From: Sipunculus nudus
Lineage: Eukaryota > Annelida > Sipuncula > Golfingiida > Sipunculidae
NCBI GenBank assembly: GCA_026874595.1
Contig: CM049309.1
Location: forward strand, 67,438,926 to 67,502,925
Direction: 5' to 3'
Length of the DNA: 64,000 nucleotides
Of the stretch, positions 3,545-58,000 are shown in pieces (position 1 is the stretch's first letter; each line of letters opens with the position of its first letter). The position numbers and the translations under genes are program-made. The notes below the pieces were generated by a model. That model was given only the letters and a program-made list of their open reading frames with translations, was not told the DNA's origin and made no database searches.

Positions 3545-5433
3545 TTTTTTTAGCGAACCTGTGAGCTTATGCGATGGTGCGGCATTGTGCATTGTGCGTC
3601 GTCTGTATATTAACCATAGCTATCTCAAAAACAGCAGAAGCTAGCATCACCAATTTTTTTGCAAATAATCAGTCATCTGAAAAACTCTATCAGATTTTGT
3701 TTATTTTTTTTTCTAACTGCATTTTCTTAGATTTTATAGGACAAAAGCTAAAAAAGCTTTAAAAATCTTCTTCTCTGAAACTGTCCAGCTAAATTGTCCA
3801 ATATTTCACAGAAATGATCCCTGGAACAATCTTTCTCAAGTTTGTTCAAATGGTTCCAGTTCGGAGATTTTTGACCGAGTTACAGGTTGAACTTAGTCAT
3901 TTGTCCAAAAGAGCACACTAAAAATAAAATCTCAGAAACGGCTAGAGCTATAATCACCAAATTTTATACCAATATTTGTCACATATGTCATATCTGAAAT
4001 TGAGGTATTGGTGGCGCCACCTACATTGATGTGTTTTTTACAAGCGAAAATGCAATTTTAAACTCTTCTAGCTTATAAACTGATTTATGATGAAAATGTT
4101 AAGCTGATTGGTTTAAACTTTACAAAAATTATTCTATGGTAGGGTTCTGCCAGTTTTATAAGAATAGATTGGGTAAATACAGCTTTAAAAAAGCATTGTA
4201 GCCAATTGAAAAAGGCTTTCTGTGTTTGAAAACAGATTTGACAACATGCTGAGTTTCAGCAGCCAAGTCAAGAGGTCACTCAGTACAAACAGGTGGGGTC
4301 CAGACATCACCATGGCAACTGACCTGGCTCTGGCGGGTGTCTAGACAATGTGTCTAGACATCTAGACTCAGCGTTTAGACATCTAGACACAATGTCTAGA
4401 TGCAGAATTCCCAGATTATTTGAACTATATCTTTCAACTGTTTAAAAAACTTGGTTTGCATTTTAAGCAAATCGGGTTTATCATCAGGTCACATGTGAAC
4501 TGCTGTGCCCTCATTTTTGGTTGACCTCTGACCTTTCCTCACTGCCCAGCGTCTATTTGTGCATCTTTTTCCACACATAAACCCACATATCTCAGGAACT
4601 GTTTGACTGATCAGGCTAAAAATTTTTGCAAAAATGTAGCCCTTTGATAGCTTTATAACATACACTAAAAATGGTGGCTCCACCTGCAACCATTTTTGCA
4701 CAGCGTCCGTCTGTTCATCTACCTTGGGATAAAATCACTCATATATAAGAAGTGGTTTTGACTTATCCACCTGAAATTTTGCAGGTTTATACATCCTGGA
4801 CAGCTTTCTCAAGTTTATGACAGGTGGTGCCACCTACCTTTACGTTTATTCTGCAGACATCCAAGCTCATATCTCGGGAACCGTTTGACCGATTTGGCCA
4901 AAATTTTGCTTGTGTATAGATCTCACATAGCACTTCATCATAGGCAAAACTGGTGGCACCACCTGCAACCACTTATGCACAGAGTCCATCTGTTCATCTG
5001 CCTTGGGATAAAATCACTCATATCTCAGCAGTGGTTTGACTTATCCACCTGAAATTTTGCAGGTTTATACATCCTGGACAATTTTCTCAATTTTATGACA
5101 GGTGGCACCACCTACATTCACGTTTATGCTGCAGACATCCATGCTAATATGCAACACACCTCGCTCTATTCCCCTTGCCACTTAATCCATGCCTCACTTC
5201 ACCCGTCCCACTCTGATTTCCGCGGATACACAGTCGCTTGTCGACTACCCATATACTGGTTTTAAAATGTCCTAGTCTGAAACTTGCAGGTCCGAAACGT
5301 CCATTTTGCTGAAATCATAATGACTAAGGTAGATATGCAGGACTTAAGAGGATCAATATTAAATTTTAAAAATAAACCTCCATTCATACTCCCAAATTTT
5401 GCACAGGTTCACATTAGGCCTGTAGGCCTTGTT
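3545..5433 (+). mobile_element. Composite R2 element carrying an internal R1 segment, copy 1
   Basis: The 5' end is the R2 start (TTTTTTTAGCGAACCTGTGAG). The R2 body contains one GGTGGCGCCACC at 4010-4021 and a GTCTAGAC palindrome cluster at 4339-4400. At about 4486 (CAGGTCACATGTGAACTGCTG) it switches to R1 sequence with alternating core modules. R1 ends near 5263 (GTCGCTTGTCGACTACCCAT). R2 then resumes and closes with GCACAGGTTCACATTAGGCC, the AGGCC-TGTA-GGCCT hairpin and TTGTTT. Organisation and junctions match 41219-43598. Confidence 0.8.
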
Positions 5434-5569
5434 TAATTTACCAGTCTAGTCAAAAAATATTTGAATTTTTTCCAACCAAGTCTATGCTTCAAATACAACA
5501 CTTGCCTATATTTTCTATACTGCACAAAATGCTGCTTTCATCCTTTCATACTGATGTCATGTTGCAGGC

Positions 5570-8362: not shown

Positions 8363-8406
8363 AAACCGCGAAAATTCAGCCTCACCGATATAAAGGCAAC
8401 CACAGT
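8363..8406. mobile_element. Solo right end of the CTGTGGTTG MITE family
   Basis: ACCGCGAAAATTCAGCCTC and AAGGCAACCACAGTA match the right side of the complete element at 49515-49948 (GGCAACCACAG followed by TA). Confidence 0.5.
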
Positions 8407-8410
8407 AGTC

Positions 8411-8575
8411 TGTATTGCAGTAGAACCTGTCATAAAAACCACCTGTCTAATGAGACCAGCTGCTGTTAATAAGATATTTGAATATTCACCTGTCAGATGA
8501 GTCCACTTTATAATTTAGACCACTTACTGCCAGTCCCAAGGGTGTTTTGTTTAAGGGTTTCCCCTGTACTATTAT
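8411..8575. mobile_element. CAGTGGAACC-type MITE, degenerate copy
   Basis: Left end CAGTAGAACCTGTC; internal ACCACCTGT, GAGACCA and CAGTCCCAAGGGTG match the intact element at 51847-52023. The right end (GGGTTTCCCCTGTA) is a decayed inverted copy of the left end. Confidence 0.6.
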
Positions 8576-8647
8576 AGGAAATATTGCACGCTAAAGAAAT
8601 GGGTTAATTATTTTGTGTTTTATTGAAATGATTAAAGTTTTGTTTTA

Positions 8648-8826
8648 CATTGGCAGCTGTAAAGGTAAAAAGGTAAAGGTGGGGGTTAATAGTCTGATAT
8701 CACCAACGATGTCAGTCTCATCCGACTTTACACTTTGCTTTCCTGGTCTTTAGGACTTGTCAAATCTTGTAGCTTTTTCTCAGCTCCCTGGGAAGCATAC
8801 AACCCAAGCAGCTGTATCTAGAAGGT
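8648..8826 (+). repeat. R5 dispersed repeat, copy 2
   Basis: Aligns with 1815-1978 (AAGGTAAAGGT, ATAGTCTGATAT, GACTTTACACTTTGC, CTCCCTGGGAAGCATACAAC). It stops directly before the R4 element. Confidence 0.55.
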
Positions 8827-8833
8827 TATTCGT

Positions 8834-10024
8834 TTTTATGCCCCCGCCACAAAGTGGCCGGGGCATATAGTTTTACCCATGTCCATCATTCCGTCCTTCC
8901 GTCCTTCCGAAATAAAACAGTTGTACGGACTTTTTTTCGCAATGCCTGCAGATATAGGCCTGATTTTTGGTTTGTGGGCAGATAATGACCAGTTACAGAT
9001 CGAGTTCGCGTTTTGTCCTGGTTGACCTACTTTTGATCGTTTTACAGCTCCTTAACTTAGAAAATTTCATGAAAAATAGAAATTTTCATGACAAATACAC
9101 ATGTACGGATTTTTTTTCGCAATGCCTGCAGATATTGGCCTGATTTTTGGTGTGTAGGCAGATAATGACCAGTTACAGATTGAGTTTGCGTTTCATCCCA
9201 GTTGCCCTACTTTTGACAGTTTTACGGCTCCTTAACTTAGAAAATTTCATGAAAAATATAAATTTTCATGACAAATACACATGTACGGACTTTTTTCGCA
9301 ATGCCTGCAGATATTGGCCTGATTTTTGGTGTGTTGGCAGATAATGACCAGTTACAGATCAAGTTCGTGTTTCTTGCCGGTTGACCTACTTTTGACCGTT
9401 TTACAGCTCCTAAACTTAGAAAATTTCATGAAAAATAGAAATTTTCATGACAATTATACATGTACGGACTTTTTTTTGCAATGCCTGCAGATATTGGCCT
9501 GATTTTTGGTGTGTAGGCAGATAATGACCAGTTACAGATCGAGTTCGCGTTTCGTCCCAGTTGACCTACTTTTGACCATTTGACTGCTCCTGAACATAGA
9601 AAATTTCATGAAAAATATAAATTTTCATAACAAATGCATATGTACCGACTTTTTTTCCTCAATGCCTGCAGATACCTCCCTGATTTTTTATGTGTGGGCA
9701 GATAATGACAGTTGCAGATCAAGTTCACGTTTCATCCCAGTTGACCTACTTTTCATTTTCTTACGGCTCCTAAACATAGAAAATTTCATGAAAGACAGAA
9801 ATTTTTATGGAAAATGCACATGTATGGACTTTTTTTCACAGTGCCTGCAGACACTGGCCTGATTTTTGGTGTGTTGTTTGATAATGACCCGTATGAGATT
9901 GAGTTTGCATTTTGCCCTTGTTGGCCTACTTTTGACCATATGACACCTCCTGAACTTCAAAATTTAACAAATGTTTCTAATTTGCCCCAGGCGGGGGCAT
10001 TCGTGTCGTTCCGACACATCTAGT
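8834..10024 (+). mobile_element. R4 Helentron-like element with six ~180-bp tandem units, copy 1
   Basis: The 5' end TTTTTATGCCCCCGCC folds into a hairpin with GTGGCCGGGGCA and is followed by CCGTCCTTCCGTCCTTCC. The core is six ~180-bp units, each with a (T)nCGCAATGCCTGCAGATA motif at about 8937, 9117, 9295, 9476, 9658 and 9839. The 3' end has GGCGGGGGCATTC, inverted to the 5' end, then the hairpin GTGTCG-TTC-CGACAC and ATCTAGTTT. Confidence 0.85.
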
Positions 10025-10025
10025 T

Positions 10026-17543: not shown

Positions 17544-18697
17544 AACTAGAATACTGGTTGTCGACAAGCGACTACGTGTATCCGCCAAAATAAGAGTGGA
17601 TCGGGTGAAGTGAGGCATGGATTGAGTGGCAAGAGGAAATAGAGTGAGGTGTGTTGCATATTAGCATGGATGTCTGCAACCAAAATGTTTATGTAGGTTG
17701 CGCCACCTACCACAAAATCCAGAAAGCTGTCCAAGTTGTATACATATGCAAAATTTAAGGAAGATAAGTCAAAACCACTACAGGTATATGAGTGATTTTA
17801 TCCCACAGCAGACAAACAGAAGGACTTGTGCAAAAATGGTTGTAGGTTGCGCCACCAGTTTTGCGTATGATAAAGAGCTATGTGAGATCTATACACATGC
17901 AAAATTTTGTCCCAATCAGTCAAACAGTTCCTGAGATATGAGCTTGGATGTCTGCAGCATAAACTAGCATGTAGGTGGCGCCACCTGTCACAAAATCAAG
18001 AAAGCTGTCCAGGTAGTGTAAACCTGTAAAATTTTAGGCAGATATGTCAAACCACTGCTGAGATATGAGTGATTTTATCCCACAGCAGACAAACAGACAT
18101 TCACTTTGCAAAAATGGTTGCAGGTGGCGCCACAAGTTTTGCGTAAGATAAAGAGCTCTGTGAGGTCTATATACATGCAAATTTTCGGGAAGATACGTCA
18201 AACCAGTCCAGAGATATAAGCATGGATGTCTGCAGCATGAACATGAATGTAGGTGGCGCAACCTGTCATAAAATCCAGAAAACTATCCAGGATGTATACG
18301 CATGCAGAATTTCAGGGGAATTAGTCAAACCACTGCAGATCTAGATATGATTGATTTTAACCCAAGGCAGACGAACAGATCGACACTGCAAACATGGTTG
18401 CAGGTGGCGCCACTATTTTTTTGTATGTTATAAAGCTATCCAAGGGCTACATTTGTTCAAAATTTTTTTCCTGATCGGTCAAACGGTTCCCGAGATATGT
18501 GGGTTTATGTGTCGAAACAGACACAAATGGATGCTTGGCAGAGAGGAAAGGTCAGAGGTCACATGTGACCCGATATTTGGTGTAAGTTTCTGAAAAAAAT
18601 CCGTCCTGTAGTCTCAGAGGAATTTTCCGGAAACGAATGCGGCGGCAGAACCCAGTCAAAAACATAGTATCTGCAAAACTTTGTTTTGGCGGATACA
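17544..18697 (-). mobile_element. R1 Helentron-like element, copy c (complete, minus strand)
   Basis: On the minus strand it starts with ATCCGCCAAAACAAAGTTTT (window 18670-18695) and the GCGGCGG-rich leader. It runs through alternating core modules with GGTGGCGCCACC-type palindromes, and ends with GGCGGATACACGTAGTCG, the hairpin GTAGTCG-CTTGT-CGACAAC and TATTCTAGTT at 17544. Both ends are present, so this copy defines the element length of about 1.15 kb. Confidence 0.85.
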
Positions 18698-34000: not shown

Positions 34001-37000
34001 ATTATGCAAATAACCATGGAGCCAGCAGTGAAATATGAAGTAAGGAAAGAACCCAAAAGCAGTAATTAAACTGTGAAATATTCACCTAAACACAATTCAG
34101 CAAAATGAAATGCAATCCAACAAATTGTGAAAAACTCATTCAAAACTGTTACAAAAGAGATCAATTATTGAATTAACATTGCAGTATTAATATAGAAAAC
34201 AAGGCAAACCAAAAAAGAGTGAAAATTCATCTCAAAACAAATCAAACTATACCAATAAGGAATGAAATATTAAAGCAAGGTATTCACCTCCCATTTCTGT
34301 TGAATTTTTAGCTCAGCTGACTGAAAGTCATCTGAGCTATAGCGATCACCCTTTGTTGATTGTGCATCTGTCTGTCTGTCCATTTACCACTGGATCTAGG
34401 TTCTTCTCACTTGACATCCAGGAAGGTCCATGAAAAATCTGATTGGAAACCTGAAATTAGGTCTCTGTTACCCATATCCTGTGAGCTCTTGGGCTAGAAC
34501 GTACCCCCATGCAGAATGATTAAAAAAAAAATTGATACAAAAGCTGCAGTATCTGAATAACTAATGCATTGATCACCATAATTTTTTTGCATGCATATTA
34601 ATCATGGAGTGTTTCATCAGTTCCTGCAGACTGGTGGCGCCACCTGGATTTTCCCAGTTTTTTTTCGAATTTTTTCTCTTTTTATTGGGATAAAGCAGCA
34701 GTTGTCCATTAACCAGGCACAAATCCTAACCATTGGACCTAGAAACATCCTGCTTCACATCAACTGAGGTCCATGAAAAATCTCCTTTGGTACCCGAAAC
34801 AAGGTCTCTGTTACCCATATCGTCCGAGCTATGGGGCTAAGAAGTACCCCCAAGAATAATTATAAAATTTGATACAGAAGCTCCAGTGTCTTAACAACTA
34901 ATGCATTGATCACCATGATTCTTTGCATGCATATTGATCATGGAGTGTTTCATCAGTTCCTGCAGACTGGTAGGGCCACCTGGATTTCCCAATTTTTACA
35001 AATTTTTAGCAAACCTGTGAGCTTATGCGATGGTGTGGCATCGTGCGTCGTGTGTCGTGCGTCGTGCGTCGTGCATCATCTGTACGTTAACCATAGCTAT
35101 CTTAAAAACGGCAGGAGCTAGCATCACCAAATATTTTGCAAATAATCAATCATCCTTAAAACTATATAGGATTTTGTTTATTTTTTTCTAACTGCATTTT
35201 CTTGGATTTTATAGGGAAAAAGCTAAAAAAGCTTTAAAAATCTTCTTCTCCGAAATTGTCCAGCCAAATTGTCCAATATTTCACAGAAATGATCCTTGGA
35301 ACAATCTTTCTCAAGTTTGTTCAAATAGTTCCAGTTCAGAGATTTTTTGCCGAGTTACAGGAGGTTGAACTTTGTTACCTGTGCAAAAAAGCATATTAAA
35401 ATTTAAATCTCAGAAACGGCTGGAGCTATCATCACTAAATTTTATGCCAATGTTGGTCACATAAGTCATATCTGAAATTGAGGTATTGGTGGCGCCACCT
35501 GCATCGGCCTTTTTTGTACGGGGTCTTCAGTGCCTGTATCACACTGAGGGCTACAAAAAACTGATCCTAGGGTAGTGCTTTCTGAAGTTTGTTCAAATGG
35601 TCACTTTTCAGTGACTTTTTGCTAAGTTATGGGAAGCTGAATTTAGTCATATGCTGTAACAGCCCATTTTAGCTTAGTGGCTACAAAGATCTTCTTCTCA
35701 AAAAACACTGGGCCAAATTCTTAAATCTCACACATTAATTATCCTCAGATGTTGATAATTCAAGTTTGTTCAAATGGTTTTGGTTCAGTGCTTTTTGGCT
35801 GAGTTACGAAGCTGAACTTAGCCAGTTTACTGTATCTTCCTATATGAGTTATAAACCTGCAAAACGTTTTTCAACTGATGCCACTGAAGCCTGCAGTTTG
35901 TTAAATATTTTACAAGAATAATCCCTACAATTATTCTTATAATAATTGTCATTAATGGTTCCACATGAATGATTTTTGGCTGAATTATGGAGCTTGAATT
36001 GAGTCATTTTACCATATATGTTAGCTGTGTGATGCTGTTACATCTAGCCTGGCACCAGTTTATCAGCATCTATTACATCATGCCACAAGACATTTAGATT
36101 TCAGGTTATCTTTGGTAAATATTGACAAGAAAGTTTTTTAGCTCAGCTGACTATAAGTCATCTGAGCTATAGTCGTGGTCCATTGTCCGTCGTCTGTCCG
36201 TCCGTCCGTCCGTCCGTCCGTCCGTAGATGTGGCACGTTTTGAAACCGTAAGACCTAGGAATCCAAAATTCATCATAATGTTAGATGTCCCTAAGATCTC
36301 CTACCAAGCCGAAAACTGGGTCTTTGAGACTTCGTTCCTTTTAGAAATTAAGGAAAAACCTCAATTTTTTATTAAAATCCTATTTTCACACTTCAGGACT
36401 GCCTAATATCAAAACCACTCATCTGTTTTTCCTCATATTTACCATAAATATTCTTCTATATAGTTCCTATGTACATGCCAGAAATTAAGTCTGTTAAGTA
36501 TTAATTCTTTAAGTTATGGGCCCAAACATAATGGACTTTGTAAAAAAATCAGGAAAAATATTTACTCACTTAACATGAAAACTTTTGAAACTAGAGTCTG
36601 TTTTCCCAAGTATATAACTATGTTTAATTAAGATTCAATTGTTTACCCAAAATTAGATCTGAATTTTGTAAATTTTTTAAGTAATTAGCATAAAAATAAA
36701 ATCAGTACCTTAAATTTTGCCCAACTTTGACCATGGCACATTTTTTTCCTGTAAGTACCATTGATTTAATTTTCACAGCATGTAAACATAAATATTTAAT
36801 TTGTTTAAATCTGAAATTTGAAAATAAAAGCTTGACAATTAAGCTAGTTATTGATTTTTTTCTTGAGGCTCTATTATAGTCATTTGCTTTGTTGACAGAT
36901 TACAGATGCAGGGTCCCACTCCAGGTCACTGGAAGTCAGCTATGCCAGGGTTTCTGATTTGTTACAGTCACTGGGGGAGATCCCCTGCTGTGACAGGTGT

Positions 37001-37029
37001 ACAGTTATTCTCATATCACCACCCCAATG

Positions 37030-37064
<35 letters not shown>

Positions 37065-40000
37065 CAAACCCAACCCACCAAGTGTTATGCAGTATTGTTA
37101 TTGTTTTCACTGTATCTCCTTAATTGTAATGCTGTTTCCACTCTGATATGCAAAAACTTTCCTTGAAAAAGTAATTCAAGGTGTAATCCAGAAGATGCAA
37201 TGTTGTGTAATGTAGCATTTTTAAAGAAATCATTTTTCTTTTAAATGATTTTACCAATCATAATGGAACCCATCAGTATGCTTAAATTATGATAAAATAT
37301 GAAGCACATTATGGATATATAAAGACACAAATAAAAATTGTGAAATCTAAATCAAGTATTTTTTTAGATATTTATTGTTTTGCAGATTTAAAAGATATAT
37401 TTTTGTGGTAAAAAATAAATAAACATTTGTATGCATGATGTGGTGTTATCTGACAAGATTGAGATTTATGATGATGCAATTGAGAATTATGAATCAACTT
37501 TTATATTCAGATGTATATGTTATATTGAAAATGTATAGAAATATAAACTTAAATTAAAAAAAAATTGATGTGATAAAAAAATGAGGATTTATTACAAACA
37601 TTTGTTCATTATTTTCCTGCATCAGCAGAATTTGAGATCAGGCTTTGTTTGCCATGTTTTATGTTGTTAATTAGTTATATTTCAACTGTATACATTTCAT
37701 AAAAAAAAAAACATATATTTAATAATATATATTATACAAAAAAAGATTCAATTGAACAAATGTGTAAACTACTGAAATGTCAACAGTTAATCGAAAAGCC
37801 AACTAATGATCATGGTAATTGTACAGATCATTTGTTCACAAACTGCTCACATGCTTCAGTTTCAACATTAGGAAACACATGGTCAGGTCACAAAATATTA
37901 TTTGCAACAATTTCTTGCTCATCAATACAAACCAATCATATAAACCAACCATGGCCTTTATTACCTCTTCCTCTTACACTTTATCTCCATTTGATATTAT
38001 TTTAGATTTTTACCTTCAAGGTTAACGTCAGCTGAGCACAGTGACCCATAGGTCCCTTGTTTAAAAGCTTTTAAAAAATTTAGATTTATGATTTAAGTTA
38101 TTCATCATACCAGCCAATGTTACAAACATGGATATTCAGCTCTCTGTGGCTATATAAAGACAACTGTACGTGGATTATAAATTATTGGTATCCCTACTCA
38201 ACTTAATTAAAAAATTTGCCATCAATGAGATATATCTGTATTTAATTTTGCATTCAGTATGTAACCATAATAATTTTACATATATTCCTGATTTCTTTCT
38301 TATAAAAAGTCAGCTGAAAAGCATTTTGTATTTGGAAAATAAATTTCAAAGTTATTACAAGTAGGGACCACTTTTGTGTACAGATGGCAGCACTTGGTTT
38401 ACCATTGGCAGATTGCCAGTGCCTTGATGTTGGCCATTAGCCAAGATGATGTCAGCTCTATAAATAGTTTTGGCACAGTGCCAGGATTGGAAGAAGTGCA
38501 GCCAGGTATAGGTCAAGAGTTCACTCAGTGCAGTAGCTGTATTCTATTTATAGCTTTGGCAGACTGCTCACTGCATCATATTTGGCACCAAAGTGCAGCC
38601 TGAATCTATTTATAGCTTTTGCAGACTGCCAACTGTGTCAGATTATGCAACAGGTCAAGAGTTCACTCAGTGCAGCTAGGTACAGGTCAAAAATTCACTC
38701 AGTCTAGCCAGGTGCAGGTCAAGTGTTCACTCAGTGCAGTAGCTTGAGGCAGCAATTTGTCACAGGTCACTCGGGGGCAACTGCCTTACTCACCTAAGCC
38801 TTGTCAGCCCAGTGCATCAAACTCTGGGGAAGTTTGATGCATTGGACTGATATTTTTACCTGTCCATGCTTCTTTGATGGTATTCTCATTTACAAGACAG
38901 GTGGTGCCACCTACATTGACTTTTGCAGTGTATGCGCCTGCTTATTTCTACAGAGGAATTTTATACATCAGCCTAAAATTGGGCATGTTTATACATATCG
39001 GGTAGCTTTATAGTGTACAAAACTGGTGGCGTCACCTACAATAATTTTTGCACCGTGTATGTCCCTGCTTATTTCATATGAGGGGTTTGTTTGACATACT
39101 GGTGGTGCCAGCTACAATCATTGTATCCGCCAAAACATAGTTTTGCAGATACTATGTTTTCAGTTGGACGGCGACGCTGCCGCCATCGCCGCATAGGTTT
39201 CCGAAGAACTGCTCCATAACCACTGGGCAGGATTTTTTAAAATTAGGAATTATGATCGGTCACATGTGAACTGCTGCACCCTCATTTTTGGTTGACCTCT
39301 GACCTTTCCTCTCTGCCCAGCGTCCATTTGTGTGTCTGTTTCCACACATATACCCACATATCCGACGGGAACCGTTTGACCGATAAGGCTAAAGATTTTG
39401 CACAAATGTAGCCCTTGGAAAGCTTTATAACAAACACTAAAAATGGTGGCGCCACCTGCAACCATTTTTGCACAGCATCCATCTGTTCATCAGCCTTGGG
39501 ATAAAAACACTCATATCTCTGCATTGGTTGGACTTATCAACCTGAAATTTTGCATGTGTATACATCCTGGACAGCTTTCTTGATTTTATGACAGGTGGCG
39601 CCACCTACATTCACATTTAAGCTGCAGACATCCAAGCTCATATCTCCGGAACCGTTTGACCAGTTGGGCCAAAATTTTGCATGTGTATAGATCTCCCATA
39701 GCTCTTGATCACATGCAAGACTGGTGGTGCCACCTGCCACAGTTTTTGCACAGCGTCCATCTGTTCATCTGCCTTGGGATAAAATCACTCATATCTCGGC
39801 AGTGGTTTGACATATCCCCCTGAAATTTTGCATGTGTATAGATCTCACAAAGCTCTTAATTATACACAAAATTGGTGGTGCCATCTGCCACCATTTTTGC
39901 ACAGCCTCCGTCTGTTTGTCTGCCATGGGCTAAAATCACTCATATCTCAGTAGTGGTTTGACTTATCCACCTGAAATGTTGCATGTTTATACATCTTGGA

Positions 40001-43000
40001 TAGCTTTCTGGATTTTTTGGCAGGAGGCGCCACCTACATTTATATATATGCTGCAGACATTCAGGCTTATATTTCAGGACTGGTTTGACTTATTCCCCTG
40101 AAATTTTGCATGTGTATAGATCTCATATCTCTGCATTGGTTGGACTTATCCACCTGAAATTTTGCATGTGTAAACATCCTGGACAGCTTTCTTGATTTTA
40201 TGACAGGTGGCGCCACCTACATACACATTTCAGCTGCAGACATCCAAGCTATTATGCAACACACCTCACTCTATTTCCCCTTGCCACTCAATCTATTCCT
40301 CACTTCACCTTTCCCACTCTGATTTTGGCAGATACAGGTAGATGCTTGTTGACTACCCATATTCTAGTTTTTGTGTTGTGTGCACCCAAGCCAGAATTGC
40401 AACAGTGATGTATGTTTAATTGTTTCTTGTTCTAAGTGTTTAGTACTTGCATTGTTCATATACATGTTACACATGTTCTTGAAAAGTAATGGTCCAGCAT
40501 TGAAGCATTATACCTGGTGTAATCTCATTGCACAGGTTCGCATTAGGCCTGTAGGCCTTGTTTTCTTTATTTTTGAGACCTTCAAAGATGTGGTGGTCTG
40601 TTAACAGAGCACAAATCGTAACCATTGCACCTAGAATCTTCTAACTTGACATCTAGGGAGGTCCACAAAAACTCTCCCAAGACCTTTTAAATTAGGTCTC
40701 TGTTACCCATATCCTCGGAGCAAAGCTTCAGTTGAAAGGGGATACCACCTACAAAATTTTGGCATTCAGATGATTTGATTTGTGAATGGCTTCTTAGTCA
40801 GCTGAGCATTATTACCAATGGGTTACTTGTTGTGATTTCTTGCTTATTCTCAGTATACACAAAGGAACTGTAGATAATTCCAGTTAAGAAAGGTTCTTGT
40901 AACAACTCCATATGGCAAATGTATGAGCTTGCTTATCTATAAGCTGTCAGTAAGCATGTTACATGCTCCAATGTTGACAAACAGAAAAACCATGTAACCA
41001 AAGGTGGTTGGTCGCATATGTGCCGCTCATTTTTTGAAGTTGTAAGGTAACTATTTGCAAAATGCATTTTGTAAAACTGTGGTTCATCTGACTTGGCACC
41101 AGATGTCTTTCTTCAATGGTTTAGATCATGTTGGCAGGTCCCCCCCCCCCCATGTTATGAATATGTGGATATAAACAGAAAGAACAGCCAGTGTGGTGAT
41201 TTTGTCATTTTTTGGCCTATTTTTAGCGAACCTGTGAGCTTATGCGATGGCGCAGCGTCGTCCGTCCACCGTCCAGGGCTGGCTTTCCGCCGTCCATGGC
41301 TGTAAGTCAGAAACTGTCGGAGCTAGCAGCTCCAAATTACATGTAAAAATTCGTCACATGTGAAACTTGGTGCCCTGGAGCTTATTATTGGGTATCTGCA
41401 TTAATTTAGATTTTATAGAGAAAAAGCTTAAAAACCTTTAAAAATCTTCTTCTCTGAAACTGTCCAGCCAAATTGTCCAATATTTCACAAAAATGATCCC
41501 TGGAACAATCTCTCTCAAGTTTGTTGGAATGGTTCCAGTTCGGAGATTTTTGGCCAAGTTACAGGAGGTTGAACTTAGTCATCTGTCCAAAAAAGCACAC
41601 TAAAATTAAAATCTCAAAAACGGCTGGAGCTATAATGACCAAATTTTATACCAATGTTTGTCACATATGTCATATCTGATTTTGTGGTATTGGTGGCGCC
41701 ACCTACATTGATGTGTTTTTTACAAGCAAAAACGTAATTTTAAACATTTCTAGCTTATACACTGATTTATGATGAAACTGTTCAGCTGATTGGTTTAAAC
41801 TTTGCAAGAATTATTCATGGTAGGGTTCTGCCAGTTTTATAAGAATAGATTGGGTAAATACAGTTTAAAAAAAGCATTGTAGCTAATTGAAAAAGGCTTT
41901 CTGTATTTGAAAACAGATTTGACTTCATACTGAGTTTCAGCAGTCAAGTAAGAGGTCACTCAGTACAAACAGGTGGGGTCCAGACATCACCATGGCAACT
42001 GACCTGGCTGGGGGGGGGTGTCTAGACAATGTGTCTAGACGTCTAGACACAGCATCTAGACGTCTGGACACATTGTTTAGAAGCAGAATTCCCAGATTAT
42101 TGGAACTGTATCTTTTCAACTATTTGAAAAAACTTGGTTTGCATTTTAAGCGAATCGGTTTATCATCAGGTCACATGTGAACTGCTGCACCCTCATTTTT
42201 GGTTGACCTCTGTCCTTTCCTTGCTGCCCAGCATCCATTTGTGCGCCTGTTTCCACACATAAACCCACATATCTCTGGAACTGTTTGACCGATCAGGCTA
42301 AAAATTTTGCACAAATGTAGCCCTTTGATAGCTTTATAACATGCACTAAAAATGGTGGCGCCACCTGCAACCATTTTTGCACAGCGTCCATCTGTTCATC
42401 TGCCTTTGGATAATATTACTCATATCTCTGCAGTGGTTTGACTTATCCACCTGAAATTTTGCAGGTTTATACATCCTGGACAATTTTCTCAATTTATATC
42501 AGGTGGCGCCACCTACATTCGCATTTACTCTGCAGACATCCAAGCTCATATCTCGGGAACCGTTTGACCGATTGGGCCAAAATTTTGCATGTGTATAGAT
42601 CTTACATAGCTCTTCATCATAGGCAAAACTGGTGGCGCCAACTGCACCCATTAATGCACAGCGTCCATCTGTTCATCTGCCTTTGGATAAAATCACTCAT
42701 ATCTCAGCAGTGGTTTGACTTATCCACCTGAAATTTTGCAGGTTTATACATCATGGACAGCTTTCACAATTTTATGACAGGTGGCGCCACCTACATTCAC
42801 ATTTACTCTGCAGACATCCAAGCTCATATCTCGGGAACCGTTTGACTGATTAGGCCCAATTTTGCATGTGTATAGATCTCACATAGCTCTTCATCATAGG
42901 CAAAACTGGTGGCACCACCTGCAACCATTTATGCACAGCGTCCATCTGTTCATCTGCCTTGGGATAAAATCACTCATATCTCAGCAGTGGTATGACTAAT

Positions 43001-46000
43001 CCACCTGAAATTTTGCAGGTTCATACATCCTGGACAGCTTTCTCGATTTTATGACAGGTGGCGCAACCTACATTCACATTTACTCTGCAGACATCCAAGC
43101 TCATATCTCGGGAACCATTTGACCGATTGGGCCAAAATTTTGTTTGTGTATAGATCTCACATAGCTCTTCATCATAGATAAAACTGGTGGCGCCACCTGC
43201 AACTGCTTATGCACAGCATCAATCTGTTGATCTGCCTTGGGATAAAATCACTCATAACTCAGCAGTGGTTTGACTTATCCACCTGAAATTTTGCAGATTA
43301 TCCATGCTAATATGCAACACACCACGCTCTATTCCCCTTGCCACTTAATCCATGCCTCACTTCACCCGTCCCACTCTGATTTCTGTGGATACACATAGTG
43401 GCTTGTTGACTACCCATATTCTGGTTTTAAAATGTCCTAGTCTGAAACTTGCAGTTCAGAAACGTCCATTTTGCTGAAATCATAATGACTAAGGTAGATA
43501 TGCAGGACTTAGGAAGATCAATATTAAATTTTAAAAAAAAACCTCCATTCATACCCCTAAACTTTGCACAGGTTCGCATTAGGCCTGTAGGCCTTGTTAT
43601 ATAAGGTTCAAGGGATTATCTGTAGTTGGTAGACGTCAGATATCAGAACAGGCCCATTTAACCTTTGAATTTGAGGGGGGGGGGGGGGAATCAAGAATAC
43701 AGGTACTACTTCATACAGTTATCCTTTTCCCCATGAGGATCACAGGCAAGGAGGCAATTTTAGGTCATAATCAAGGAAATAAAACAAAATGGAGCCTTTG
43801 AGGAAGTAACTTGTACAGCATACCGGTGGCAGCCAAAAGCATCATCCTTGTTAACAGGTGAATGATAAAATGGTAGATAAAAACACCCTAGCAATGCGTT
43901 TTGTGTGAGTGCCAGCAAGCTACTCCAGTCGGGCAGGCAGCAGACTTGCCGTCTCTTACACAACTAGCCCCTTCTACATCTTTCTGCTCAGGCTTGTAAA
44001 CCACCAACCATCTATCACTCTTCAACTGGGAGAGGAAACCATTCACTGCTGTGTTATGTGTTGTTCCCTGGGCTATTTTCTCATCTCTGATGGCAGATAT
44101 TATTCACATTTTAGCAATGTCCATGGTTAATTATTTCATTCCCTTTCATAAGGGGAACTGGTAAAATTATTTGAAAGGAATATTAATGGCTCAGTTTTAA
44201 AACTGTTGGAACTAGAAATATATGTAATCAGGCTGGTACAGTCATTTGAAAGTTCTGAAAAATTTAAACACTTACAAATTTTTATAAAATTTGACTCTGG
44301 TCATTCTTCCAGGCTGTACCAGTCTGTTTTCTTTACAAAGTGAAAGTTGTATATAACCAGAAAAGGCTGTGCACCCACCTGTACAATATTTTACACATGC
44401 CAATTTCTCCTTAGATAATTGTTTATCTAGATGTTTGGAAAATTATTAGTATCACAGGTTAAATTTAGCATGCAAGAATTATTTCTGTTTTTTTTTTAAA
44501 TCTGCATTATTTTTAAAGCATAAATATTATGCATATTTTAAGAGAAAGGTGACAGCAAGTTTTACAGAATGGTATTTATATTATCTGTTGTGTATATGTC
44601 CTTCTCTTTTCTCCTTCACATATACATCTTTATGTCAAATAAATGTTTTCTTTCAATCCAAAACATGACTTAATAAACATAGCATATTACTGAAAGGCTG
44701 CCTTATATAACACCATTTAGAATATTATTTGTAAAAATGAGTCCTACTGACAGAATAGAGGAACCCAGGTTTCATATTGCATGTCAACAATATTAAATTG
44801 AACCTATCAATAGGCTGGAGTAACAACTGGATATGTGTGCTGTTTTCTCACGCTGTCCAGCCCTGCCTTGATTCTGAAAGAGCTGCATAGAATGCTGAAA
44901 GGCTTAGCATGTAACTGTCATAGCTTTTCACAGTTCTGAACGATAACTACAACAGTAGAAGACTTTTTGTTAAAGCCAGTCATGGATGTGTGGATATATT
45001 TTTAAGCATTAGGTCCTACCCGGTTTGATGGTTTACTGACAAAATAAAAAGAGATAAGTGGTTTTCATTCCACAACACAATACCCAGTTTTGTTCTTGCC
45101 ATGTCTTTATTTAGTCTCTTATAAGTGAATTGTTGAAAAGCTGATCAAATATGAATGGGGAAAATGTCATTTTTATATGGGCACATATCTAGAGCATCAT
45201 ATTAGAACAGTAGTGTTTGAATGATTTTGGTGACACTTTCATTAAATAAATTCCTCTAAACATGGCTTTCTTTGTTGTTTTTGTGTGAGTGTGGTGGCAT
45301 ATACTTTGCTTCAAATAAAATATTCACAATTGCCAAGTTAACTTTTTTCTTGGTTATTTTGTTAATGTTACATTCTGTTATTGAAAAATCCTTTATAATA
45401 GCTGTAAAAAGCAAGACATTTGGACTCTTTGGGATGACACAAGCAGCAGTGAATTATTTTTTGTTTCATAATCAGATATGCTGAAAAGTATGTGTGTTTA
45501 TAAATTATCAAAAATCAAGTTATTTATTATGGAATAATTTTGGCTTAAAGAGAAATGCTTTCTAACCCAAATTTAATCTTTTGTGGTTTCTTCTAATTTA
45601 TTTTGGAAGAAACTGGAATTAAACCAGTATACCTTCTGGGGTAGAGGAAATGTTAAACAACTATAACAGTCTCTTTTTAAGAAATTGTGATGGCCTAGCC
45701 ATGACTAATGTGATGAATTTGTTATTCATACAGCATTATTATTATGATTATATTGTCACTGTGATTTTTAAATCATTTTGAAATTCACCTAGACATATAT
45801 ACACACCTACCACTACCTAAAACAGTAAAGGTACATCATCCTTTGCAATGATATGTGCATTATCTCAAGCTTTTAATTAATTTTAGCATCAGCTAAACAA
45901 ATAACATTTCCAGTAAAACCATCCTGGAATACACAGACTTACAGTATCAGTACAAGTTGTTATGGTTCTGTGTGTGAGTAAACACAGTCTCTGTGTGCCT

Positions 46001-49000
46001 GGTTTCTATATCAAGACTTTAAAAAAAAGTCTTATTTAGGGCATGTGTGATAACTCCCAAACAAGGAGAAAAACATGGAAGAAGAGCTTCTGGGGGAAAA
46101 AAACACCAGTTCACAGCTTGAATTGTGAAGTTGCACTGTTTGGCTACCAGCTGGCATGGTGCTATGTTTGTGTTTTCCACCACTGATCATGCCGAATGTA
46201 AGCTTATTTCCACCCATATAGAGGAGTAAGCAAATTGTTGTAAAACAAATATTTCAGATACCACAAAATATAGGAAATATTATATTTCATGATGTTTAAC
46301 CGACTTTGTATTTGAATATGTCTCATTGCCATTGTCAGATTTTCAGCTTCATCAAGGCTCAGTTAATAAAATGCCATTGAATTATTTCAGGTGTGCGAGT
46401 GTTTCTGAGGGGTAAAGCACACGTAGAATGGAAAATAACACGGGGAGGGGATAGAAGAACCGTCAAGGAAGACCAGTACTTCATGGATGACAAAGCCATT
46501 GTGTGGGGAATAGGTGAGTTATTAAATTAACTGGTGTATGGGATTTGTAAAACAAACACATCAGTATTCAGTGCATTTTTAGCTCAGCTGACTATAAGTC
46601 ATCTGAGCTATAGTCGTGGTCCATTTTCCGTCGTCCGTCTGTCCGTCCGTCCGTCCGTCCGTAGATGTGGCACGTTTTGAAACCATAAGACCTAGGAATC
46701 CAAAATTCGGCATAATGTTAGATGTCCCCAAGATCTCCTACCAAGCCGAAAACTGGGTCTTTGCAACTTCGTTCCTTTGAGAAATTAAGGAAAAACCTCA
46801 ATTTTTTATTAAAAACCTATTTTCACACTTTAGGACTGCCTAATATCAAAACCACTCATTTGTTTTTCCTCATATTTACCATAAATATTCCTCTATATAG
46901 TTCCTATGTACATTCCAGAAATTATGTCTGTATTATTTAATTTAAAAAAGTTCTGGGCCCAAACATAATGCATTTTGAAAAAAATAAGGAAAGATATTTG
47001 ATCACTTAACACAAAAAATGTTAAAGCTGTGGACCTTTTTTCCAGTAATATAACTTTAATTAATCAAAATTAAATTGTATACCCAAAATTAGATGAAAAT
47101 CTTTTAAATTTTTTAAAATATTTATAAAAATAAAAAATTGGTACCTTAAATATTGCCCAACTTTGACCATGGCACGTTTTTTTCCTGCAAGTACCGTGGA
47201 TTTAATTTTCACAGCATGTTTTTGTCAGCATTTCAACTGTTAACACTAAAAATTTGAAACCAGTTGATCAAAAACTGTAGATTTTAATCAAGTTTTCAAG
47301 CACCTTGTAACATATTGTTTACATCAAGCTAGTGTTATGCAGTTTACAAAAGCTCAGCTCCCCAGCTTCAGCTCTAAGTTCCTTAAATTCAGCATACAGT
47401 TAGATGTCTCCAAAACCCCCTACCATGCCAAGAATTTGGTCACTAGGACTTTATACCTTCGAGATATTAATGAAAAACTTCATTTTTCCATTAAAAACCC
47501 ATTGTTACACTTCAAGACTGCCTAATATCAAAACCACTGATCTGACTTTAATCATAAACAATATACATATTTTTCATTCTCTATGCACATCCCAGAATGA
47601 TGTCAGTATTGCGTAATTGTTTTAAGTTATGGGCCCAAACATAATGCACTTTGTAAAAAATCAAGAAATATATTTACTCCCTTAACAAGGGCATTGCTAG
47701 AGATTTTTTGTCAGGGATGTAACATTATTTAATCAAGATTCAATTGAATACCCAAAATTAGTTCTGAATTTTTCAAATTTTATAAGTTATTAGTATAAAT
47801 ATAAAATTAGTACCTTAAATTTTGCCCAACTGTGACCATGGCACGTTTGTTTCCCGTGAGCACTGTTGATATAATTTTCATATCATGCACACATAAGGAT
47901 TTCAGCTTTTTAGTTTAGAAAGCTGAAAGAAATTGGCCAAAAATTGTAGCTTTTATTAATGTTTTTTATGAGACCCTGTCAGACTTTGGCTCTCTCCAGC
48001 CCCTCTTGAGTCACCTGTATGTTGACCTTGTTGACCTTTCATCAAATTATGCACGCTTGAGGCGAGGCATACAGGAATCCAGGCAGCATATGGCCAGCCA
48101 CAGTTGATCCAGGTGTCCAACCGAACTCATCTAGTAGTTTTAACCAACAACATAACAATAAACAACAAATTAATAAATTTTTATTGGTTTTTAATAACAA
48201 ATTAAAGAAAAATAGAAAAGGAATTTGTTAGTTTATAATAACAGGAAATTAACTTGCAGTTACTGATGATATAAGAATCTTGTATCGATGGGTAGAATGT
48301 CACATATTCCAAATAACACCATGCAGTCACCTATGGCATTTTTCAGTTCAATTTTAATGATAAAGAAGTAAATCATATAATTCATTACTAATCATTAGGG
48401 ATCATATGAAGGAAATTAATGATAGACAAAGATGCAGTTGATAATATTAATCTAGATTCCTACTGTGTCTAGTGTGTACATTGATGTGAAATTAGTCCAA
48501 AATGAATTTTTTACAGTTATTTTTAATATAAATAAAAGCCATAAAACCAGGTACTTATGATCATTATTTAAATGTGTGAATTTTGTATATTCTGGATTCT
48601 CAACATCATTGTTTGGTGAAAATTGAATTAATACCAGACATGGTGCGAATACTTTGTAATTGTATTTAAATACGAATATGATTATGTACTCCATTATAAA
48701 ATTTCTTGCATAAAGAATGGGAATTCAGGTTAAAATGAAAGTATATGAATACTTGTGCAAATACTTTCAAAATGTATTCATGAATGCATTCATGAATATA
48801 TTCTTTAATATTATTTTAATAATCATATCAGTTATATTTCATTTTAAAAAATCATATGCTTCTCTTATTATTTTTAATAAAAATTATATTTGGGACAATA
48901 TTTGTAATTTTTTAAAATAAATAGTTAAACTCTTATATTATATGTTCTGCTTATAAGTTATATGGCCAAGTCAAAATCTGTGTGACAATAGTACTCCAAT

Positions 49001-52000
49001 TGTTAATAAAATAAATGAAATCAATCCTCTTCCCTGTCTCCAAAGGTACTATCAAAATCATACATAAGCTAAACAACAACAACTCATAATACAGCTTATA
49101 TTTAACACCACACAAAACCAGCATGTGCCTCATTTCTTAATAATATTTTTTTATCATATATAACAGCTGAGCGTCGTGACCCATAGGTCCCTTGTTTTAT
49201 GAATGTATGAAATAGGTTAGCAGCTATAAAAACCATATGGTAGCTTAGCCGACTGTAAGCCAACTGAGCTGTAATGACGGTCCTCAATTTTTCTGCAGGC
49301 TGTCTATCCATCCATCTGTATATTAGAATGACATGTTTTGAAACTGTTTGAATTCAAAATTCAACATACAGTTAGATGTGTAAAGGTCTGCTGCTAAACC
49401 GCAAAATGGGAAACTGCAACTTTGTCCCTTTGAGAAATTAAGGAAGAATCTCAATTATCCATTAAAAACCTTTTGTTACACCTCAAGACTACCTAATAAC
49501 TAAACCACTTGGCATACTGTGGTTGGCTTCATATTCGCGAGGCTGAAATTTCGCGATTTCTCCATTTTGAACATTTTGCGAGGGTTTCATTTTCGTGATA
49601 TCACCAGAACCTATATAAAATCATTGTTAAAGCCATACTTGTTTGTATTATAAAATGAGAATAAGTCATGAGTTTGTGATATCCTACTCATATAACGATG
49701 GGCCCGTACACAACACAGGATGTTTAGTTCAAATTTGAAGGGAACGTTTTCCCTATACCTGCATGAATGTAATTTATTATAAAATTTCTCACTGTTCTAA
49801 CCTATTCACATTCAAGTATTGTTACACTCAACAAAAAGGACATACTTAATTGGGCCAATATTTCCTGAGGGTTTCATTTTCGCGATTATTCCCCATTCAC
49901 CAATATCGCGAAATTAAAACCCTCGCAAACAAAAAGGCAACCACAGTATATGGCAGAAATTAGGTCAATATTACATGTTTTGTACAGGTTTGGACATGAC
50001 CATAATGTGCCTTTTCCATACAGCAGGAAAGATATTTACTTACTTAAAAGGTAACTGAAACTTGACAGGGAAGCTCCAGCTGAGCTAGATAGTTAAGGTT
50101 CCCCTCTCACCAATCCAACTGACAGTTTCCATAAACAAGATGAAAGTTATAATTTTTTATGTTAAATTCAGAATTTGCCTCAAGACTGTCAGTGCATTGA
50201 GGTATAATTGCTTATATACTTGTGTGTCACCAAAGTGATGTTATATTGCTCAAGAAGTGTAAATGTTTATTATTTGAGGAGTTCCCATAAGCCAACTATA
50301 AAAAGAGCTGAGTTATTACAGTAATCAAATGAAAGTTTAAACAACTTTAATACTTGGTGTAATTTATTGTTGCCCCCTGAAATTTAAGTGCATATAGAAA
50401 ATATTATACATTGTTTCTAGTCCCTACTTATAGTTTCTAGATTTCAGAATCAGTAAATATTTATTATGTTATAAAATAGTAACTATGATCATGTCATAAT
50501 AGCTAGATGAAACATGTCAATAGAGATCATAGAAACTGTTCCATCGCATGTAGTTAGCATAGGCAAACAAGCAACTATATATGCAAGACAGACATATTTG
50601 ATAATATTTTCCCAACCGCACTTTAGCATTTGCATTATGTTTTAAAATACAACAATATAAAAATGAGCCTCTTTTCTCTATGCTTGGATTTTATAAATTT
50701 CTATCATAACTATGAGGCAAATTCAGCTGAGTGCCATGACCCATTGGTCCCTAGTTTTCTTAGGGGGGGGGGGGGGAGTTATTTTAATTATAGTATTTAA
50801 GCTGATACTTGTAGCTTAGCATGTATCATGCACTGTTTTTTTTTACTATGAGGACCAACTGGTAGTGTAGATGTTACAGAAAAAATAATGCAGAATAACT
50901 CCTGACATTGAGACATTACCACTGATTTTATTTAGTTGGTAAATATTTTATAATTCCATTTGTGCAATGGTGAAGTGTTTTAGCTTTCGAGTCAGTTTTG
51001 GATTGTGGAGAGCAAAGGGTGCCATCTGGTGCCCAAAATAAGAATTATTCAAAGTCACCTGTGGTTGTGAGAAATGGCCACTTGTATCTGGGGATATTTT
51101 ATTTTAGATTTATACCCTTCTGTCATTGTAAATATTAACCGTATAAAGTATTTTATTATTTTTTGCAAAAATCCTAGGCATCCCATCATGGAATAAACAA
51201 GAGTGAGGATTGATAAATTAGTAAAATTTAAAGATGCCAGTGTATATTCAAAAATGTATGATAATTGTGTCATATATTCATACTATTATTATAACTATGG
51301 TCTTATTTTCCTCTTTTAGATAAGAATGACGAAGGGCCAATACCAATAATGCCACGAGGGGACCATAAATTCCCATTTGAATTTCAAATACCAGAATGTT
51401 CACTTCCTTGCTCATTTGAGAGCAAAATTGGAACAATACGTTACTATCTACGTGTGATCATAGACATTCCATACGCTTCGCCACCACAAGGTCTCAAGTA
51501 CTTTACTGTCATTGGTCCACATATTGACTGCATGGAGGAGCGCTACCTGGTGGGTTGTTTAACTAATAATCTTAGAAACCTTTGCATTTTATGAAATGTG
51601 ATGAATCCATTGATTGTGAAAAATGATCTAAGTGCTAGTACCATTGTGAATGTTTGATATCTTATAGTTTCATTATTTGTAAGAATTTTTCAAATACTGA
51701 TGTAAAACATTAGTTCTTCATTCTGTTATTGGGGAGGCAGGAAGCAAGACAGTTTCAAAACTATTAATAAATAAATAGATTGTATGAGAGAATATGTCGA
51801 TCAGACTGTTAAGTTGAATAAACATTCCCCTTTGTTTTTGGTTATACAGTGGAACCTGTGTGAAAGACCAATTGTTTAATAAGAACACCTGTCAATTAAG
51901 ACCAACTTGTGTAAGCCGAAAGCATTCACATTTGTTAAAATTGACCTATCTGTTAAGACCACCTGTGTATTTAGACCACTTTCTGTCAGTCCCAAGGGTG

Positions 52001-55000: not shown

Positions 55001-58000
55001 ACTATAACATGAATAGATTGTGCTTCACACAGAGAATCAGACCCCTCTTATCAAACATGTTTAATAACTGAATTCTCCATGTGTTATCATGCAAAGTAGC
55101 AGGACTCTTCATTACACTGATCCCACTACTTTTAAACTTTTTACATTTTTACATTTCATTTTTCTTTTACATTATTTTAATTATGTTTATGATGCAGAGC
55201 CCTATGTTGACTTGTATTTGTAGTTTGTGCTCTTCTGGGATAGATATAAATACCCAGAGTTCTGTCAATTCTTTCTTCCCCCCCACCCTACCCCCACCAA
55301 AAAAAAAAATCTCACCCACAGTGGTACAGTCAATTTGTTAAACAATGTATTATTATAACCCAATCACACCCCATTCATTGAGAATGCTTAATGTCTGGAT
55401 TATTTTCTTTCTCCAAATTTATAACAGGTGGCAGCACCCTCTGGCAGTCAGGTGAAATAAATAAAATAAGCCAATCAGGTAACTGTTACAACCTTAAGAC
55501 AATGAAGCAGCATTTACATCTTGTCCATTTTCATTCTTGCAATATTGCCAATAATTTTATATTTCTTTAACATTGGTATTAATGTCAAAATATTGCTGGC
55601 CCACAGTTGTTGGAGAATGATTAACAATAAACACAACAGGTGGCAGCACTCTGTAGTAATCATCATCAAATCCAAGTGCTTGATTGATTATTATTCATAT
55701 ATTTTCTCCCTAGTGTTGTTAATTCTCATATTGATCATATATGAATGCAGGTATCTGTGGGCTCTGAGAAGTCTGGGGAAGACCTAGAGATTGACTTTGC
55801 TGTGGATATCGCAACACTCCCCTACAGAATACCTTCCAATCCAACGCCCGAAGTCAAATTTGGTAATTTGTTTCCATTGACAGTCATCTTATATATCCAA
55901 GCTTGCTTCTTTACCAATACATTTGAATGTTAATGCCACTATCCAGACTATACCAGTTAAATCTTGATCAGCTCAGTTCAACTTTGACCTAATCCAGATC
56001 AGAGTAAGGGATCATTGGTAAATTATCAGGATCCTGAATCAGATTACTCTGTTTGCACCAGGCCAACAATCAGCATTAGTTTGGTCTACTATAGTCTGCT
56101 TAAAAGGTGGTCTATAGTTTACTTAAGTCTGGTTAGTTTATACAGTAAACCAGTTCCTGGTGTGTACAGGCAATCTGTTTCTAGTCTGCTGGAGGCCAAG
56201 TTTGCTACCGTTTGACCTAATCCTTTCTGGTAAATATCACTTAGTTTTAGCAGCACAGTAAATCAGATTGACAACCCGGTGCAGACAACAAGCTACTGTT
56301 ATTGAATTAACCAGTTTAGGCTCTTACACAGGCCCTTGAAATCACCATTAAAACAAGTCTAAATGGCCCCTATGTAGCCTAATACTACCCATAATAATAT
56401 TAAGACACCAGGTAAGAAACGACTAGGAGGACCCTCAGAGACCCGCAGTATTTAAACTATCCATTTCCATCATACCTACTTATCACTGCATGCACATAAA
56501 ATTGACCCAAATGGTTCCATCTGACAAAGAACGAACTCCAGTTACAATCCCTAGCCAGGTATAGTTAACTGTTTTATCAAGCATAGCCAAGCTTTGTGTA
56601 CCTGTCTTCCCAGTCATTACCATCGCCAAGGCCCAAGCAGCTTCTGACAGATCAGCAGTGCTTTTATTGGTCGGCTTATTAATATTCATGATAAACAATC
56701 AAACGATGGTGCTCATGCACTTTGCCCAGATGGGATTGTTTATCATGAATATTATTAGGCTTTTATAAGGTGAATTATAGTGCGGACGCAAAGCCTGCTA
56801 CTAACAGACTATAGTAAACTGGAATAGTATAATCCAATTTTTATGCCCCCGCCACAAAGTGGCCGGGGCATATAGTTTTACCCATGTCCGTCATTCCGTC
56901 CTTCCGTCATTCCGAAATCAAACAGTTGTATGGCCTTTTTTTCGCAATGCCTGAAGATATTGGCCTGATTTTTGGTGTGGGTAGATATAGACCAGTTACA
57001 GATCAAGTTAGCGTTTCGTCCCAGTTGACCTACTTTTGACTGTTTTACGGCTCCTAAACTTAGAAAACTTCATGAAAAATAGAAATTTTCATGACAAATA
57101 CACATGTCCGAATTTTTTTTTCGCAATGCCTGCAGATATTGGCCTGATTTTTGGTGTGTGGGCAGATAATGATCAGTCACAGATTGAGTTGGCGTTTTGT
57201 CCCGGTTGACCTACTTTTGAACGTTTTACGCCACCTTAACTAAGAAAATTTCATGAAAAATATAAATTTTCATGACAAATACACATGTACGGAATTTTTT
57301 TCGCAATGCCTGCTGATATTGGCCTGATTTTTGGTGTGTAGGCAGATCATGACCAGTTACAGATCGAGTTCATGTTTTGTCCCAGGTGACCTACTTTTGA
57401 CCATTTGACTGCTCCTGAACATAGAAAATTTCATGAAAAATAGAAATTTTCATAACAAATGCATATGTACGGACTTTTTTTCCTCAATGCCTGCAGATAC
57501 CACCCTGATTTTTTATGTGTGGGCAGATAATGACAGTTACAGATCGAGTTCGCGTTTCGCCCCGGTTGACCTACTTTTGATTGTTTTACGGCTCCTAGGC
57601 TCCTAAACATAGAAAATTTCATGAAAGACAGAAATTTTTATTGAAAATGCACATGTATGGACTTTTTTTCACAATGCCTGCAGATACTGGCCTGATTTTT
57701 GGTGTTGCTTGATAATGACCTATTACAGATCGAGTTTGCATTTTGCCCTTGTTGACCTACTTTTGACCATAGGACACCTTTTTCAAAATTTAACAAATGT
57801 TTCCTATTTGCCCCAGGCGGGGGCATTCATGTCATTCCGACACATCTAGTTTTTTTATGTTTCAATAAGAATGTCATATGATCAAGGAAAAGCATGAAAA
57901 TAACAGAATTATTTGCTAAACAGGTAAAAGCACTACATAACAAAGGTAATCTTTTCAAAATTGTATTATTTTATCTTCTTTAAAGAAGGAAATCATATTA

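Follow-up and report, generated by a model that had tools for sequence, protein, structure and literature searches.

What moves the four repeat families found in a single stretch of the Sipunculus nudus genome, and is it one machinery or several? The stretch, hereafter the window, is 64,000 nucleotides long (GenBank assembly GCA_026874595.1, contig CM049309.1; C4:67438926-67502925 in our numbering). A preliminary description of it recognized repeat families R1, R2, R3 and R4, which do not align at their ends and yet seemed to share the plan of Helentron-type rolling-circle elements. From scans of the window and of the genome (1.43 Gb in 153 contigs), we find that R1-R4 are very probably HINEs, non-autonomous elements of the Helentron/Helitron2 branch, mostly carrying satellite-like arrays and mobilised in trans by Rep-PIF1 proteins that autonomous elements with matching ends encode. 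This class assignment draws on the termini, the T-rich targets, the lack of duplication, the coding elements with R3 and R4 ends and the Rep and PIF1 domains of these, all of it read from sequence.

All four families carry a subterminal inverted repeat of 9-11 nt and a short hairpin near the 3' end, and they terminate in CT(A/T)GT, after which comes a T. The termini of the copies first cited agree with the earlier positions, give or take a few ambiguous T's, and the window holds further copies (Table 1). The ends of the families are indeed mutually unalignable, the 150-bp ends sharing just matches of 7-20 nt, the longest of them of GTCC type. The first 60 bases of each element were compared with its last 60 for inverted matches, which were scored against 500 dinucleotide shuffles per family and, as a second control, against 2,000 random same-length spans from the window. 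The longest match was 9 nt in R1 (equalled in 2 of 500 shuffles and 22 of 2,000 spans) and 11 nt in each of R2, R3 and R4 (0 of 500 shuffles each; 3, 3 and 4 of the 2,000 spans), and the claim that a 5' motif recurs inverted near the 3' end is upheld above shuffles in all four. For the R1 copy at 25514 the subterminal repeat is present, but its motif reads GTATCCGCA and not GTATCCGCC as had been given; the complete motif is found in the copy at 26738.

The 3' hairpin stems of the cited copies measure 7 bp in R1, 5 in R2, 4 in R3 and 6 in R4, and stems as long arose in 7, 97, 264 and 19 of 500 shuffles, respectively, where the R4 score refers to another 6-bp stem than the cited GTGTCG/CGACAC. 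Taken on their own as single cited copies, the hairpins of R2 and R3 reach no significance against the 500 shuffles. The 3' ends are nonetheless conserved across the genome: allowing up to three mismatches, and four free positions in the R3 pattern, we counted 9,941 ends for R1, 11,125 for R2, 37,998 for R3 and 4,744 for R4, with 0 for each reversed control pattern. The R2 5' end occurs 9,347 times at up to two mismatches (control 0).

Other parts of the plan are less general than the preliminary description held. A 5' end inside a T-run is not found in R1, whose 5' flanks are ...ATT or ...AAT, and R1 also has a GCC repeat in place of the GTCCGTC stretch. A tandem core, called with Tandem Repeats Finder (TRF), is missing from the cited R3 copy at 36134-38062, in which that program reports just (GTCC)n, a C-run and two minor short repeats. 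A run of 33 C lies at 37031-37063 inside this copy. Nor are these four independent families: R2 consists of its own left end and body, then positions 129-1189 of the 1,189 of R1, then its own tail, and so, as its sequence reads, R2 is a chimera holding a 5'-truncated R1.

Comparison with empty sites, proposed beforehand as a check of these boundaries, revealed no duplication beyond T's at the sites examined for R1-R4 ends and placed the insertions at TT or T-runs. Among the non-autonomous elements, these sites cover one copy each of R1 and R4 and two of R2; among the autonomous ones, two with R3 ends and the one with R4 ends. The R1 copy, which lies outside the window in a locus designated L036, reads AGTAATT-GTATCC...CTAGTT-AATG, while all four of its sister copies read AGTAATTAATG; if one T is assigned to each side, R1 would be TGTATCC...CTAGT, placed between two T's. 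An R2 copy at about C4:96977352-96979799 sits in a Helentron reading frame at a point where two empty relatives (C1 and B2) have seven T's, and the joined flanks of the window's R2 at 35004-40562 align without a break, at 72-77% identity, with the core near the 5' end of autonomous R3 elements. For the R4 copy at 8834, whose host site belongs to a dispersed repeat, the joined flanks were spanned in 40 of the 40 places scored among 4,359 candidates; four aligned empty places read GGTTATTCGT to the left of the insertion point, one of them GGGTATTCGT, and TCTAC to its right. As for the autonomous elements described below, the joined flanks of C1 match one empty place, which was aligned, and those of L015 match six, of which three were aligned, and the R4 partner interrupts a continuous R2 copy, compared with the window's R2 at about 77% identity.

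These sites bear directly on the idea that R1-R4 are foldback or MITE-like (miniature inverted-repeat transposable element) cut-and-paste elements with tandem cores. Inverted repeats near the ends and tandem cores do look alike in the two classes, and the Pearl elements of bivalves were first named MITEs (PMC7492417). The absence of target duplication beyond T's refutes such an origin for the sites examined, the inverted repeats are subterminal rather than terminal, and the coding elements with R3 and R4 ends encode Rep and PIF1 domains; we regard this origin as hardly credible.

The Rep profile PF14214 gave 143 genomic matches (150 of 195 candidates scored), and 41 Rep loci, some with two of these matches, were examined as five long stretches and 36 segments of 2.3-2.5 kb downstream of Rep. 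The search for autonomous elements with ends matching those of the repeats succeeded for R3 and R4, and these 41 loci yielded no proven partner of R1 or of R2. At a loose threshold of up to one third mismatches, which takes in the degenerate ends of L023 and L065, an R3-type 3' end lies downstream of Rep in the sense direction in 18 of the 41 loci and in antisense in two; L071, with 12 of 34 mismatches, is uncounted. In 16 autonomous 3' ends picked (15 R3-type and one R4), CT(A/T)GT is followed by T in 14, by A in L024 and by G in L020; this selection leaves out L023, L065 and L067, and also the second R3-type end present in L015, L020 and L024.

Both boundaries of the R3 coding elements can be placed by comparing copies. 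Five of them (C1, L015, L016, L028 and L033) are about 98% identical over 1.2 kb and their similarity stops together at CAGCTGAGC..TGACCCAT.GGTCACTTGT, beyond which their 3' flanks have nothing in common at E 0.001. The R3 5' end and its GTCCGTC stretch open both C1 and L015, whose 5' flanks are unrelated; L016 also starts at the R3 5' end, with a flank comparison limited to 11 bases. A second group (L017, L018, L024, L025, L026 and L066) stops at GGCCACTAGT, and L019 and L020 form a third R3-type group. R3-type ends enclose coding elements of approximately 15 kb, of which C1 extends from about C17:35640364 to 35625478. Its open frame of 2,342 residues, stop to stop, holds Rep and PIF1 in one protein with Pfam matches to an OTU-like domain (named Herpes_teg_N), DUF6570, Helitron_like_N and PIF1. 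Just inside the 5' end of the R3 coding elements lies a 337-bp array, and the split element at 34305-40832 of the window matches these autonomous R3 Helentrons in its 5' end and its 336/337-bp core.

In a group of R3-ended Helentrons, all five members that were read upstream (C1, L035, L036, L037 and L038) have an R1 copy before the Rep frame; R1 is therefore carried along by the R3 element. L036 has a second R1.

The R4 partner is a unit of 12,006 bp (C3:41766493-41778498) with an exact R4 5' end and an R4 3' end with one mismatch. Between these ends are 6.5 copies of the 180-bp unit that forms the R4 core, a Rep and a PIF1 frame in the sense direction, and a decayed piece of R4 core; the Pfam domains Helitron_like_N and PIF1 fall in two neighbouring open frames. 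When the entire locus was searched for all eight ends known from R1-R4, at up to one third mismatches, the R4 pair was found and no other. Could this unit be a chance nest, a Rep/helicase block inserted in, or captured by, an R4 HINE? It has been seen as a single copy with broken gene frames, and pieces of R4 core flank the genes on both sides, which would fit such a nest. The R4 pair, however, is the sole pair in the locus (known ends alone having been sought), Rep reads in the sense direction of these ends, and the entire unit interrupts an R2 copy, all of which makes a nest improbable in our estimation. We file the unit by its sequence as a putative autonomous-type rolling-circle element and not strictly as a Helentron, because an endonuclease was not found and the frames are broken. 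R4 itself is plausibly a deletion derivative of an autonomous element that kept the left end, the 180-bp core and the right end. The R4 core in this coding element, together with the 337-bp array in the R3 coding elements, suggests that the satellite array belongs to the autonomous element and not to the derivatives alone.

Several observations weigh against the assignment of R1-R4 to HINEs moved by partners with the same ends. An R1-type 3' end was found downstream of Rep in 0 of the 41 loci, and a single R2-type end was seen at the Rep loci (L061), with no R2 5' end within 7 kb upstream. The R4 partner, besides being a single copy, has a Rep/helicase frame split in two (964 + 877 amino acids), and Pfam detected no endonuclease domain in the pieces scanned, which include the end of the helicase frame. 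In C1 the Exo_endo_phos match is weak (21.3 bits, E 2.5e-4, below the Pfam cut-off of 24.5 bits). The R3 empty sites come from two autonomous R3-ended elements and not from the R3 HINE at 36134, and the R4-in-R2 site and the window R2 site were aligned at just about 72-80% identity, for which reason the base-level reading of the target rests on the other sites. Finally, T-runs hide the exact cut and, with it, any duplication of one or two T's.

The R2-type 3' tail of L061 lies downstream of a degraded Rep, and R3 and R4 5' ends lie 7.4-11.0 kb upstream of that Rep. Among the 40 matches listed, which include this tail, 38 other places match the 138-bp tail alone and one matches the preceding sequence alone. 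With tail-only matches at 38 places and no R2 5' end seen, L061 is no more than a possible R2 partner.

The preliminary description had proposed that one shared replication machinery selects on structure. In its strongest form, a single autonomous lineage would move all four families, its Rep reading shape (the hairpin, the subterminal repeat and the T's) and not sequence. The plan and the CT(A/T)GT terminus followed by T are common to families whose sequences differ, and coding copies have been seen with R3-type ends and one R4-type end only, despite the abundance of R1 and R2; both facts would fit such a lineage. The R3 and R4 coding elements, however, each bear their own subterminal repeats, where recognition of shape alone would need no sequence match, and the sample from which R1 and R2 partners are missing is 41 Rep loci, a few of which account for two each of the 143 matches to the Rep profile. 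We consider a single lineage unlikely. Since the R3 and R4 partners have different ends, and the endonuclease is weak in those of R3 and not seen in that of R4, the idea of one machinery is not supported, and the common factor is the mechanism of the superfamily, apparently operated by family-specific partners. The Helentron-type non-autonomous plan as such is well supported by the empty sites without duplication beyond T's and by the Rep/helicase elements with R3 and R4 ends.

From the published Helitron/Helentron model we infer by analogy how such family-specific partners would act in trans. The Rep (HUH) nuclease would bind the family-specific subterminal repeat and nick at the T-rich 5' boundary, and the PIF1-like helicase would unwind one strand. 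Synthesis would halt at the 3' subterminal repeat and hairpin, after CT(A/T)GT, and the displaced single strand would enter a T-rich target between two neighbouring T's, leaving the target unduplicated.

One of the autonomous R3 elements may illustrate what happens when termination fails. The inserted unit of L015 ends at a second R3 3' end, of HINE type, 45 bp beyond its own hairpin end; the left flank is plain host DNA, and the three aligned empty sites resume after the second 3' end. We tentatively read R3 ends as exchangeable modules, L015 having possibly read through its own terminator and stopped at that of a HINE, because this explains most simply both termination at the second end and the empty sites; we hold this to be somewhat short of an even chance. 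The alternative is a nested insertion followed by recombination between two R3 5' ends. If read-through did occur, the L015 case would mean that a HINE end works in trans, and read-through would offer a way for new families to arise by recombination of satellite cores, of ends and of entire neighbouring elements, R1 within R2 being an example. At up to one mismatch, 32 places (12 exact and 20 with one, e.g. C10:71595551-71595582) run directly from an R3-type end into the beginning of an R3 tail; most of the other junction places carry a HINE-type first end, and L015 alone was read in detail. These remaining places may be independent, repeated insertions into the T-run just before the R3 tail, and that T-run may be a favoured target.

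The architecture of R1-R4 is already published, both for Helentrons and HINEs and for Cg_HINE, from the Pacific oyster. Thomas et al. 2014 (PMC4067079) describe the Helentron plan as subterminal repeats, a 3' palindrome, insertion at TT, variable terminal T's and a partner relation. Likewise, the elements studied here insert at TT with variable terminal T's, their partners encode a Rep-PIF1 protein with an OTU-type extra, and subterminal repeats and a 3' stem-loop are common to autonomous and non-autonomous partners, as in Helentrons, HINEs and DINE-1 of that paper; in contrast to Helentrons, support for a fused endonuclease is weak in the R3 partners, and the R4 partner showed none. Relative to Helitron2 of the same paper, we place the R3 and R4 partners, above all that of R4, no more closely than in a joint Helentron/Helitron2 branch.

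Helitrons make up about 8.7-12.6% of four oyster genomes (PMC11136912). From the Pacific oyster, Vojvoda Zeljko et al. 2020 (PMC7492417) report 11 HINEs, several of them unrelated, with GTCY, GTCC or GTCK microsatellites and satellite-like cores. Cg_HINE and R1-R4 are alike in their subterminal repeats, complementary internal repeat, 3' palindrome and T-rich targets without duplication, in the GTCY/GTCC/GTCK microsatellite of several members, in the satellite-like tandem core and in the presence of several sequence-unrelated elements in one genome, a likeness drawn from the descriptions. The bivalve Pearl elements, as cited in that paper, are also non-autonomous and carry short arrays of central repeats of about 160 bp, in contrast to cores of 180 bp (R4) and 278 bp (R1) here.

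What our data add is the R3 and R4 partners and the double 3' end. The 10 autonomous Helentrons of the oyster could not be related to its HINEs, a link that in the words of that study 'remains unresolved', and this is what gives weight to the partners found here: both ends, the empty sites and, in the case of R4, a shared core array connect two abundant families with coding elements. Searches of open-licence PubMed Central listed no title or abstract opening that reports a link between bivalve HINEs and autonomous Helentrons, which is no claim that it is absent from print. It can now be tested whether satellite arrays are present in autonomous elements from the outset, with deletion derivatives then spreading them.

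Table 1. Copies of R1-R4 in the window and coding minisatellites at Rep loci (window positions unless a locus is named)
Feature	Position	Strand	Remarks
R1 copy	990..1786	+	Without 5' end
R2 element	3546..5433	+	Holds the same truncated R1 as the R2 at 41219
R4 element	8834..10024	+	5.8 x 180-bp core; 3' hairpin GTGTCG/CGACAC, CTAGT(T); subterminal repeats ATGCCCCCGCC/GGCGGGGGCAT; host site a dispersed repeat
R1 copy	17544..18697	-	
R1 element	25514..26702	+	1,189 bp; 278-bp core repeats; 5' end TGTATCCGC...; 3' end GGCGGATAC-hairpin GTAGTCG/CGACTAC-CTAGT(T)
Second R1, directly downstream of the first	26736..27577	+	5' end intact; 3' end degenerate, end set by homology
R3-type element	34305..40832	+	Split by the R2 at 35004-40562; 3' end degenerate, 9 of 34 mismatches
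R2 element	35004..40562	+	Spans the R3 (36134-38062) and an R1 (39121-40369); itself inserted in an R3-type element
R3 element	36134..38062	+	(GTCC)n, no tandem core; 5' end AGCTCAGCTGAC; 3' end GTCAGCTGAGC-GACC/GGTC-CTTGT(T)
R1 copy	39121..40369	+	Inside the span of the R2 at 35004-40562
R2 element	41219..43598	+	42162-43426 is a 5'-truncated R1 including the R1 3' end
R3 element	46575..49197	+	5' end 46578 and 3' end 49164-49197, paired by position
R4 element	56839..57850	+	
Coding minisatellite	C1, oriented 8542-9067		
Coding minisatellite	R4 partner, oriented 8961-9712		
Coding minisatellite	A1, 4124-5105		

The dispersed repeat around the R4 copy at 8834 includes window positions 8704-8833 and 10025-10154. 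By eye it could pass for a tRNA-derived sequence; ARAGORN on the window and Rfam on positions 8500-10400 both came back empty, and that candidate was rejected.

The palindrome GGTGGCGCCACC occurs at 46 places in the window at up to two mismatches (between 1358 and 55438; 0.31 expected in shuffles). Most of these places lie in the cores of R1, in the bodies of R2 and in the autonomous-type core of R3, and the palindrome is thus common to cores of families with different ends. It is also present in the 5' regions of L015, L016, L018 and C1, and no copy at up to one mismatch was found in the R4 partner's upstream stretch.

The longest Rep family (A1, A2, B1) has no R1-R4 ends in the stretches scanned. 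Homology between A1 and A2 ends on the 3' side at the palindrome GCTTGCGGAAATC/GATTTCCGGCAAGC, and the elements of Rep family A (L005-L010 and L056-L059) exceed 15 kb, with tandem repeats of approximately 800 bp after the frame and a 3' palindrome unlike those of R1-R4. With family A, the genome may have a third type of rolling-circle terminus. Within the frames of three Rep families, tandem repeats precede the Rep domain, and their unit lengths of 63, 138 and 69 bp are all multiples of three.

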